The translations under genes were made by a program, and so were the position numbers. Shown one piece after another: positions 17,539 through 20,871 of a DNA stretch of 32,644 bases. The notes beneath the pieces were generated by a model that worked only from the letters and a program-made list of their open reading frames with translations, was not told the DNA's origin and ran no database searches. Origin of the DNA: Thomasclavelia sp. (GTDB taxonomy: Bacteria > Bacillota_I > Bacilli_A > Erysipelotrichales > Coprobacillaceae); NCBI RefSeq assembly GCF_017889095.1, contig NZ_JAGHEW010000249.1, positions 1-32,644 of the forward strand, written 5' to 3'. Within the stretch, counting starts at the first letter, position 1, and the number at the start of each line of letters is the position of its first letter.

Positions 17539-17567
17539 TTGACATTTGACAGTGTTTATAATATTAT
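17539..17567 (+). promoter_or_regulatory. Putative sigma-A promoter for the CBS/CorC gene
   Basis: TTGACA, 17 bp spacer, TATTAT. Confidence 0.55.
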
Positions 17568-17606: not shown

Positions 17607-18893
17607 GTGGACCCGAGTCAGATAGTTAATATTATTGTGTTTTTTATTTTAATTGCTTTATCAGGTGTTTTTTCCTGCTCTGAAACAGCTTTTTTATCAT
17701 CAAATAAAATTAGGATGCGGAATTTAGCCCAGGAAGGTGATGGGCGTGCTAAAACGGTAATTAAGCTTTTAGAAAATAGTGATCGTTTGTATAGTTCTAT
17801 TTTAGTAGGTAATAACTTAGTAAATATTGGAGCATCTTCATTAACGACATCGATCGTAATTGGCATCTTTGGTAACTCTGCAACGTTGGTTGCCGCTGCT
17901 TCCGGGGTAGTTACATTTATGATCTTAGTTTTTGGTGAAATTACTCCAAAGACTTTTGCTACTAAAAATGCCGATCGGCTAGTTTTGTTTCTTTCAAGAT
18001 TTGTAGCGTTTATTTGTTTTATTTTTACACCAGTAGTCTTTTTATTAAACATCATTACTGGTTTTATTATCAAAATGTTAGGTGGTAATAAAAATCCCGG
18101 ACCGACGATGACTGAAGAAGAATTAAAAACCATCGTTACTGTTGGTCATGAAGAAGGGGTATTGGAAGAAGAAGAAAAGGAAATGATTCATAATGTATTT
18201 GAATTTGGTGAAACTGAAATCAAAGAAATTATGACTCCAAGAATTAATGTTGATAGTATTCCTGATGATTGCAGTTATGAAGAACTGATGGATATTTATA
18301 AACGGGGACAGTTTTCACGTTACCCTGTACATAGTGAAAGTTTTGATGAAATCGTTGGGGTATTAAACGTTAAAGACTTATTATTCTTTAATATCGATCC
18401 TGAAAAGTTTGAAGTAAAAGATTACATGCGGGATACTTTTGTAGTTTATGAATTTAATGAAGTTGGTGATGTCTTTGCTTCAATGCGTAAAGAACATGTT
18501 TCTCTTGCAATTGTTTTAGATGAATATGGTGTAATGAGCGGGATCGTCACTTTTGAAGATATCGTTGAAGAAATTGTCGGTGAAATTGATGATGAATATG
18601 ATGATGAAGAAGACGATATGGTAATTAAGTTAAGTGAAAATGAATTTTTAATTGATGGCAGCTTGAATTTAGGTGAAGTTAATGATAAAGTAGGTACCGA
18701 CTTTGATTCGGAGGATTTTGAATCAATCGGCGGTTTGGTATTAGGTGAGGTTTCTGGAGTACCAGAAATTGATGATGAAGTCCAAATTGATAATGTTTTA
18801 TTTAGAATTGTAAAAATGCATAAAAATCGAATTGCTCAATTGAAAGTTACTATTTTAGAAAATGAAGAGGAAAAAGAAGGAGAGCATGATTAG
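17607..18893 (+). CDS. Hemolysin-family (CNNM transmembrane - CBS pair - CorC/HlyC C-terminal domain) protein
   Basis: SGVFSCSETAFLSSNKIRMRNLAQEG, GEITPKTFATKNADR, IMTPRINVDSIP, two CBS segments, C-terminal transporter-associated domain. GTG start. Confidence 0.92.
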   Translation: MDPSQIVNIIVFFILIALSGVFSCSETAFLSSNKIRMRNLAQEGDGRAKTVIKLLENSDRLYSSILVGNNLVNIGASSLTTSIVIGIFGNSATLVAAASGVVTFMILVFGEITPKTFATKNADRLVLFLSRFVAFICFIFTPVVFLLNIITGFIIKMLGGNKNPGPTMTEEELKTIVTVGHEEGVLEEEEKEMIHNVFEFGETEIKEIMTPRINVDSIPDDCSYEELMDIYKRGQFSRYPVHSESFDEIVGVLNVKDLLFFNIDPEKFEVKDYMRDTFVVYEFNEVGDVFASMRKEHVSLAIVLDEYGVMSGIVTFEDIVEEIVGEIDDEYDDEEDDMVIKLSENEFLIDGSLNLGEVNDKVGTDFDSEDFESIGGLVLGEVSGVPEIDDEVQIDNVLFRIVKMHKNRIAQLKVTILENEEEKEGEHD

Positions 18894-18922: not shown

Positions 18923-20236
18923 ATGAAGAAAACTATTGAAATTAAAAAATTAGGAATTAATGGTGAAGGAATTGGCTATTTAAATCGTAAGATTGTTTTT
19001 GTTTCTGGAGCATTACCAGGCGAAGAAGTAGTTGTTGAAATTGTTAAACAAAATCGCGGTTACAGTGAAGGAAAATTAGTTAAAATCTTAAAAGCATCAA
19101 AGAATCGAGTAGAACCAATGTGTCCTTTATATGAAAACTGTCAAGGTTGCAACATGATGCACATGACTTATGAAAGTCAGTTACAAGAAAAGAAAGAAGC
19201 TGTAAAAGAAACGCTTAAAAAATATACTGAATATGATTTAAAATCAGTTGATTTCAGTGATGTTATTGCATCTAAACAATCAACTGGCTATGTATGTGAA
19301 GTCAATTTACCAATTGTATCTTTTAATGACAAGATTACTTTTGGAATCTACCAGCGTGAAAGTAAGTATTTAACATTAATGACTGGCTGCTTGATGCATC
19401 ATCCGCTAGTCAATCATTGTTTAAAAGAATTAAAAAATATTTTAACTAAAAATAAATGTCGCATTTATAATGATCGTTTTAAAACCGGACTTAGATTTTT
19501 AAAATTAAAACTGATCGAAGATAAGATCCAGTTAGTTTTTGTTACTGGTCGTGATGGTTTGTCAGATAATCTAGTTAAACAGATTAGTGAAATCCCTAAT
19601 GTTGCGGGAATCTTCATGGCGGTAAATACTTCTAAATATCAAAATTTTGATGAATCTAAATATTCTAAATTATATGGTTTATCAAGATTAGAATTACATC
19701 ATGATAATAAGCGGTATTTATTAGGGGTAAAAACAGAACTTAATAAAAGTGTTGATTTGATTTTTAAAGAAAATGAAATCGTTAAAGAAATGATATGTGA
19801 TAGTAAAAAAATTATCGCTACTAATGTTAAAGCGGCACTATTAGAGTTGAATTTGGACCAGGAAGAAATAATTGCGCTTGATAATAAAACTTATCAAGTT
19901 GAAGACGCTAAATTAAATGCTAAATATTTAAAACGAGATAATGTTAAATTTGTTGCTGGAAAAATTGAAGATAAAATCGTTACTTATGCTAAGAAAAAAT
20001 GTTATGATACTTTGATCATTCATGACAGTGGTAAAAAATTAAGTGAAAAAATTATTAATACGATTAAAATTGCTCGCTTTGATACGGTAATTTATATCAG
20101 TGATTCATATTCTGCGCTAGCTAAAGATATTGCATTACTACAAAACAGTTATTCATTAAAACAAGTAGTACCAATTGATACTTCTTGTCATAATACTTAT
20201 TTGACAACAATCGTTAAACTAGTTCGTAAAAAATAA
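18923..20236 (+). CDS. RlmCD/TrmA-family (RNA m5U methyltransferase-like) protein with degenerate catalytic motifs
   Basis: N-terminal TRAM-like domain (GINGEGIGYLNRKIVFVSGALPGEEV), Fe-S cysteines CPLYENCQGC and TGC, methyltransferase-fold C-terminus (EDAKLNAKYLKRDNVKFVAGKIED). DPPR, SCNP and HVE motifs are replaced; see findings. Confidence 0.85.
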   Translation: MKKTIEIKKLGINGEGIGYLNRKIVFVSGALPGEEVVVEIVKQNRGYSEGKLVKILKASKNRVEPMCPLYENCQGCNMMHMTYESQLQEKKEAVKETLKKYTEYDLKSVDFSDVIASKQSTGYVCEVNLPIVSFNDKITFGIYQRESKYLTLMTGCLMHHPLVNHCLKELKNILTKNKCRIYNDRFKTGLRFLKLKLIEDKIQLVFVTGRDGLSDNLVKQISEIPNVAGIFMAVNTSKYQNFDESKYSKLYGLSRLELHHDNKRYLLGVKTELNKSVDLIFKENEIVKEMICDSKKIIATNVKAALLELNLDQEEIIALDNKTYQVEDAKLNAKYLKRDNVKFVAGKIEDKIVTYAKKKCYDTLIIHDSGKKLSEKIINTIKIARFDTVIYISDSYSALAKDIALLQNSYSLKQVVPIDTSCHNTYLTTIVKLVRKK

Positions 20237-20252: not shown

Positions 20253-20498
20253 ATGGAAATTAGATATCAGCCTCAAGGAGTCTGCTCAAGACAAATTATC
20301 ATTGACGAAGAAGACGGGATCATTAATCAAGTAAAATTTGTCGGAGGATGCTCTGGTAACACTCAAGGTGTTGGCGCTCTTGCAAAAGGAATGAAAGTTG
20401 AAGATGTCATCACTCGTTTAGAAGGAATTCGCTGTGGCAGCAAGCCAACTAGCTGTCCAGCTCAATTAGCTAAGGCTTTAAAAGAAAACATGGGATAG
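20253..20498 (+). CDS. TSCPD domain-containing protein (TIGR03905-like)
   Basis: VCSRQIIIDEEDGIINQVKFVGGCSGNTQGVGALAKGMKVEDVITRLEGIRCGSKPTSCPAQLAKAL. Confidence 0.88.
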   Translation: MEIRYQPQGVCSRQIIIDEEDGIINQVKFVGGCSGNTQGVGALAKGMKVEDVITRLEGIRCGSKPTSCPAQLAKALKENMG

Positions 20499-20524
20499 TG
20501 GAAAGCAATTTTCCACTTCTTTTC
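20497..20524 (+). terminator. Rho-independent terminator
   Basis: AGTGGAAA-gcaat-TTTCCACT then TCTTTTC. Confidence 0.65.
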
Positions 20525-20565: not shown

Positions 20566-20871
20566 ATGTTGATAAAGATAAAAAAATTACAGTTACTTTG
20601 TGGAATGATCCTATTAATGCAAGTGATTTGTCCAATGTGGATCATTCCTTTTCATTTTATCGCTGCCTTGATTTCGATCATTATTATTGGCTGGCAAAGA
20701 AAGTTTTGTGTGCTTCAAGTTCAATACCATTATTATACCTTGATTTTATATGCCTACCGTATCTGGTTATTAAATTATCCAGCCTGGGCTATTTTTGATA
20801 CGATTTATTTATGTTTATGTTTATATATTGCCATTATGATCATATTATTTTCTTTTCGGGCGATTTTGTAA
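20566..20871 (+). CDS. Small hydrophobic membrane protein, unknown function
   Basis: 101 aa, several hydrophobic segments, SD AGGTGAT before the ATG. Confidence 0.6.
   Translation: MLIKIKKLQLLCGMILLMQVICPMWIIPFHFIAALISIIIIGWQRKFCVLQVQYHYYTLILYAYRIWLLNYPAWAIFDTIYLCLCLYIAIMIILFSFRAIL

Follow-up and report, generated by a model that had tools for sequence, protein, structure and literature searches.

Organization of the locus

The window, by which we mean the whole 32,644-nucleotide stretch of Thomasclavelia sp. DNA that was analyzed, carries on its forward strand an uninterrupted 437-codon open reading frame with no internal stops, as an earlier reading of the letters alone (the sequence-only reading) had described. 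We refer to this gene as pseudo-YfjO and to its product as P0001. It lies between a CNNM/CBS transporter-like gene and a gene for a small TSCPD protein, and the three genes likely form one operon.

17539..17567, + strand: promoter-like site TTGACA-17-TATTAT, 5' of the putative operon; such sites occur in the region at chance frequency
17607..18893, + strand: CNNM/CBS transporter-like gene that opens the putative operon, found 5' of pseudo-YfjO in most of the family
18923..20236, + strand: pseudo-YfjO (P0001), full-length TRAM/Fe-S/central/Rossmann methyltransferase (MT) protein of 437 aa, m5U catalytic residues lost
18923..19093, + strand: TRAM domain, residues 1-57 (PF01938, E=5.9e-12); INGEGIGY motif intact and mostly invariant in 36 orthologues
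19121..19150, + strand: putative Fe-S cysteines C67, C73, and C76 (C67-x5-C73-x2-C76); the fourth, C156, is at 19388-19390
20253..20498, + strand: TIGR03905 4-Cys TSCPD small protein, 81 aa, last gene of the putative operon
20497..20517, + strand: terminator-like hairpin, 3' of the TSCPD gene

The source is a draft assembly with 93.8% completeness and 5.2% contamination, but closely related assemblies show pseudo-YfjO among the same neighbors. The TSCPD gene is kept directly 3' of pseudo-YfjO in Thomasclavelia, Faecalibacillus, and a third genus, and in nine loci a hydrophobic 101-aa open reading frame (20566-20871), which has no Pfam or NCBIfam match, separates the TSCPD gene from dnaE.

P0001 has the architecture of the YfjO/SP_1901 subfamily, with a TRAM domain, the four cysteines of a putative Fe-S cluster, a central domain, and a Rossmann MT domain. 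Its score against the NCBIfam profile TIGR00479 (rumA) is 199 bits, above the cutoff of 183.55, so automatic annotation would label it an RlmD-type 23S rRNA methyltransferase. The Pfam profile tRNA_U5-meth_tr (PF05958) had no match in P0001, and the idea that the MT family is absent from this protein was overturned by the rumA model and the trees.

P0001 belongs to the YfjO/SP_1901 subfamily

In a tree rooted on RlmCD, the copies from this family, which we refer to as the dead clade for the reasons given below, form one clade (SH-aLRT 100) that is sister to Erysipelotrichaceae YfjO proteins with intact motifs, with RlmCD separate (99-100%). The TRAM and central columns alone gave the same result, with the dead clade again monophyletic. 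Streptococcus, Enterococcus, and Listeria each have a second paralogue with all motifs intact, and these are the tree neighbors of RlmCD and of the dead clade plus the Erysipelotrichaceae copies; the remaining Streptococcus paralogue is a close match to SP_1029 (RlmCD). From this tree position and the assignment of the Streptococcus paralogues, P0001 is a member of the YfjO/SP_1901 subfamily (COG2265) and not of RlmCD, where the name YfjO rests on the second Streptococcus/Listeria paralogue and on PMC4605293, B. subtilis YfjO itself having been left out of the tree. The earlier placement of P0001 in the RlmCD/TrmA family called for refinement at the level of the subfamily, YfjO in place of RlmCD. 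The same genome also has the intact RlmCD that the sequence-only reading had proposed looking for, at G000:C109 (L002), with the motifs DPPRKGC, SCDVATQARD, and HVE.

RlmCD (YefA, SP_1029) shares its fold and domain order with P0001 but is an active dual-site 23S rRNA enzyme. YfjO of B. subtilis and SP_1901 of S. pneumoniae are orphan COG2265 proteins that resemble P0001 in tree subfamily, TRAM domain, Fe-S cysteines, and central and MT domains, and that have BrkB nearby in several Bacilli. In pneumococcus, SP_1901 is not involved in m5U747 or m5U1939 (PMC4605293, PMC7226160).

The m5U active site was lost throughout the family

Our alignment comprised 36 YfjO copies from the family and 66 from elsewhere. 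Residues are related to the RlmCD numbering of PMC6235398 and PMC5614603, which was transferred by phmmer alignment. Compared with RlmCD, P0001 has E272 for F281, N274 for Q283, N284 for Y293, K303/A305 for GxG, H367 for D381, G370 for R384, T428 for E443, and D394 for the nucleophile Cys. The replaced sites are as follows.

19736..19744, + strand: E272-L-N274, replacing the uracil-holding F-x-Q
19817..19861, + strand: former SAM loop, residues 299-313, ATNVKAALLELNLDQ; GxG lost in the Thomasclavelia genome studied
20021..20032, + strand: H367-D-S-G370, replacing DPPR (alignment)
20102..20104, + strand: D394 codon at the position of the nucleophile Cys (alignment)
20204..20206, + strand: T428 codon at the position of the general-base Glu (alignment)

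These positions bear out what had been read from the letters for the nucleophile (Cys to Asp394), the DPPR motif (HDSG), and the Glu of HVE (Thr). Set against active m5U methyltransferases (RumA, RlmCD, and TrmA), P0001 lacks the Cys of SCNP, the catalytic Glu together with the Asp and Arg of DPPR, and the GxG loop. No alternative SCNP, HVE, or GxG motif was seen elsewhere in P0001, and misalignment or hidden intact motifs were considered and rejected. Since residues shown by mutagenesis to be needed in RlmCD are lost, P0001 is almost certainly inactive for m5U.

The loss extends across the family, in contrast to YfjO outside it, where the catalytic residues are kept in 65 or 66 of the 66 sequences. 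The equivalents of the uracil-stacking F281 and of Q283 are each present in 0/36 family copies and 66/66 outside sequences, the nucleophile Cys in 0/36 and 65/66, the DPPR Asp in 1/36 and 65/66, and the general-base Glu in 6/36 and 65/66. In the 36 family copies, the Cys is replaced by D (19), Q (8), S (5), K (3), or E (1), and the Glu is T in 16. The loss is therefore conserved among the orthologs, as had been anticipated, but the C-to-D and E-to-T substitutions are not, and the variety of replacing residues argues for an inherited loss rather than a single substitute. Loss of the SAM loop, which the sequence-only reading had also noted, holds for P0001 and for eight further copies at scattered tree positions but not clade-wide, as GxG is kept in 27/36 copies; the ribose-binding acid is kept in 34/36. 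By alignment and tree, the catalytic Cys, the uracil-holding Phe and Gln, and the DPP motif are shown to have been lost once, in the common ancestor of the family, so that the 36 sequences from the family and the 66 from outside do not represent separate events and the loss counts as one.

Pseudo-YfjO is retained under purifying selection

A copy of the gene is present in 43/43 sampled genomes, from 20 genera, of this family of gut bacteria, among them Thomasclavelia, Faecalibacillus, Beduini, Longibaculum, Stoquefichus, Massilimicrobiota, Sharpea, Eggerthia, and Kandleria. Pairwise dN/dS is 0.04-0.25 for the whole gene in pairs with usable dS and comparably low for the MT part, although these values are rough because many pairs have a dS close to 1 or larger. 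The AlphaFold2 model of P0001 (mean pLDDT 93.1, pTM 0.90) predicts an intact fold. Its closest solved structure is S. pneumoniae RlmCD with RNA (5xj2, TM 0.91), and its TM to E. coli RumA (1uwv, 2bh2) is 0.84-0.86. The structure prediction and the ortholog dN/dS that had been proposed as checks thus gave a high-confidence RlmCD-like fold and low ratios, and the view that the gene is retained rather than decaying stands. These comparisons show purifying selection, as judged from substitution patterns, on the fold, the TRAM and central domains, and mostly the Fe-S cysteines. They also show P0001 to be, on the same kind of evidence, an anciently inactivated pseudoenzyme kept by selection. The sequence-only reading was blind to the family-wide, ancient loss and to the link with BrkB described below.

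Constraint has shifted from the MT domain to a putative RNA groove

The ratio of MT to central-domain identity is 0.80 (jackknife standard error 0.03) in the dead clade, compared to 1.36, 1.35, and 1.36 in the intact groups (two YfjO groups and RlmCD), where the MT domain is the more conserved. While 25/29 columns conserved only in intact YfjO are in the MT domain, 25/29 columns conserved only in the dead clade are in the TRAM and central domains and 4/29 are in the MT domain (Fisher p 4e-8, versus the intact-only columns). Within the dead clade, INGEGIxY in TRAM does not vary, nor do parts of the central domain, and conservation in the stand-alone dead protein is highest in TRAM INGEGIGY and at the central RNA-groove positions. 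Two stretches, QRESKYLTLM and NTSxYQxF, are conserved specifically in the dead clade.

19352..19381, + strand: central-domain loop QRESKYLTLM, residues 144-153, matching RlmCD loop 145-151
19625..19648, + strand: linker B NTSKYQNF, residues 235-242, matching the RlmCD N247/N249 linker; N235, T236, and F242 are invariant in the dead clade

In RlmCD, loop 145-151 stacks on RNA and linker B (N247, N249) contacts the RNA loop (PMC6235398). This match between dead-clade conservation and the RNA-contact segments of RlmCD favors an RNA groove that is retained, and possibly re-tuned. Counting against its retention, the equivalent of R127, which RlmCD needs for RNA binding and activity, is V124 in P0001, and R or K is found at this position in only 22/36 family copies.

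An enzyme-like protein that is under strong selection without its chemistry suggests that binding RNA, and not modifying it, is now the role. We propose that members of this family still bind an RNA stem-loop in the TRAM/central-domain groove, where the Fe-S cluster would be a structural element, and that they would serve as non-catalytic RNA chaperones or scaffolds. For P0001, an RNA-binding scaffold is the function we consider probable from the conservation pattern. TrmA provides a precedent, since it folds tRNA via its RNA-binding domain independently of methylation (PMC11301382), although TrmA keeps its catalysis and P0001 does not. A bovine mitochondrial Trm2 homologue also lacks a key catalytic residue and is suspected of RNA binding without methylation (PMC11301382); that is a single-residue loss, whereas the P0001 family has lost the whole active site, family-wide. 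We found no report of pseudoenzyme RNA methyltransferases, or of catalytic loss in YfjO/SP_1901, in the open-access papers searched.

YfjO is an orphan RNA methyltransferase found across many Bacilli without a known target, and a family that has kept it throughout its history without the chemistry is a natural experiment separating binding from catalysis. This experiment points to TRAM and the central groove as the probable site of the retained function, with BrkB as a candidate partner. P0001 is also a warning for annotators, as it passes the rumA/RlmD equivalog cutoff of TIGR00479 yet lacks the residues for the reaction.

The Fe-S cysteines are largely kept but dispensable in one clade

The cluster cysteines first read as C-x5-C-x2-C plus a further Cys are indeed C67, C73, C76, and C156, and all four are present in 33/36 family copies. 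This co-retention, which extends to five BrkB-fused copies (below) despite their decayed TRAM, would fit an Fe-S or redox sensor whose retained function lies in the cluster, with the remainder of the protein as scaffold. However, the three exceptions belong to one clade (Kandleria and relatives) that has lost the four cysteines together while the gene is kept, so the cluster is not indispensable to the retained function. In addition, intact YfjO outside the family has the cysteines in 60-63/66 sequences, losing them now and then, so keeping them does not set the dead clade apart, and the residues that gained conservation are in the RNA-groove segments. A pure Fe-S sensor is less likely than an RNA-binding scaffold, and we consider it unlikely. 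The suggestion that the protein was retained for RNA binding or for Fe-S/redox sensing is thereby favored, from conservation, in its first part and weakened in its second.

The copies of the Kandleria clade, at L039:2937-4241, L040:2565-3872, and L041:2631-3935, are stand-alone dead YfjO genes with TRAM kept. Rnf-like genes, recognized by eye from sequence only, are 3' of pseudo-YfjO in several family genera; a possible Fe-S/electron link was dropped, as they are absent at the Thomasclavelia locus.

BrkB is a neighbor or fusion partner of YfjO in many relatives

A gene for a BrkB/YihY (PF03631) membrane protein is directly upstream in 18/37 sampled family genomes (manual count). Listeria newyorkensis and several Erysipelotrichaceae whose YfjO is intact share this arrangement. 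In other Bacilli and Mollicutes relatives, BrkB is no more than about 6 kb away, and a polysaccharide deacetylase gene often intervenes. This proximity in the wider class may be a remnant of an old gene order and not the sign of a functional link. Five genomes, from three genera, encode a fusion of BrkB with a second, degenerate YfjO-like protein (about 710 aa); one of the five is assembled as a single contig.

L038:1636-3768: BrkB-YfjO-like fusion
L069:940-3069: BrkB-YfjO-like fusion
L187:2133-4265: BrkB-YfjO-like fusion
L188:1838-4003: BrkB-YfjO-like fusion
L189:2162-4276: BrkB-YfjO-like fusion

The fused copies have a degraded TRAM motif and keep the Fe-S cysteines in 5/5, the reverse of the Kandleria-type stand-alone copy, and the degraded TRAM points away from RNA binding for these copies. 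Two genomes, G023 and G031, carry both a fused and a Kandleria-type stand-alone copy, which is only suggestive of a division of labor. The AlphaFold2 model of the fused protein (5 sequences; mean pLDDT 61.6, membrane half poor) was left out of the evidence.

In many relatives, pseudo-YfjO is probably made with the upstream-encoded BrkB-type protein and may act beside it. Membrane association via BrkB is a weaker proposition than RNA binding, and the Thomasclavelia genome encodes BrkB away from pseudo-YfjO, so a membrane link is unsupported by the locus itself; we regard membrane-associated action of P0001 as conceivable rather than probable. No link between BrkB/YihY and RNA or YfjO was found in the open-access papers searched. 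Taken as a whole, P0001 would plausibly, and in our judgment somewhat probably, be a YfjO-subfamily pseudoenzyme retained as a scaffold that binds RNA and is possibly membrane-associated.

The adjacency, the five fusions, and the deacetylase in the wider neighborhood could instead reflect a purely protein-protein scaffold, lacking an RNA ligand, on which a membrane (BrkB) or envelope complex is built. We think this quite unlikely, as conservation in the stand-alone protein is highest in the TRAM motif and at central groove positions, and BrkB is not adjacent in Thomasclavelia. A broader proposal, speculative and rather doubtful, is that YfjO and BrkB form an ancient two-part unit in Bacilli, a membrane-associated RNA-binding module whose main role is independent of RNA methylation, of which this family would have discarded the catalytic half while some genera fused both into a membrane-anchored pseudomethyltransferase.

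Residual SAM-binding features and inactivation elsewhere

The GxG and ribose-binding acid that most family copies keep would be compatible with a neofunctionalized enzyme or SAM sensor, which still binds SAM for other chemistry or to report SAM levels. Against this, motif IV is freely variable, the Phe, Gln, and Cys are lost throughout, the 4/29 dead-clade-specific columns in the MT domain provide no new conserved polar set, and GxG is absent in 9/36 scattered members including P0001; we therefore view it as improbable. The idea of a dispensable enzyme decaying recently in a single genome, to which the greater erosion of P0001 (GxG lost) than of most relatives might point, is hardly credible and was rejected, being contradicted by the 43/43 presence, the low dN/dS, and the high-confidence fold, and the orthologs did not prove intact with only this genome mutated (Cys in 0/36).

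The single outside sequence without the Cys (1/66) is the YfjO of an Erysipelotrichaceae metagenome-assembled genome (L101:4001-5317, the same gene as L042:2423-3736), in which Cys is replaced by Ser and Glu by Gln with the other motifs intact, an apparent independent inactivation.
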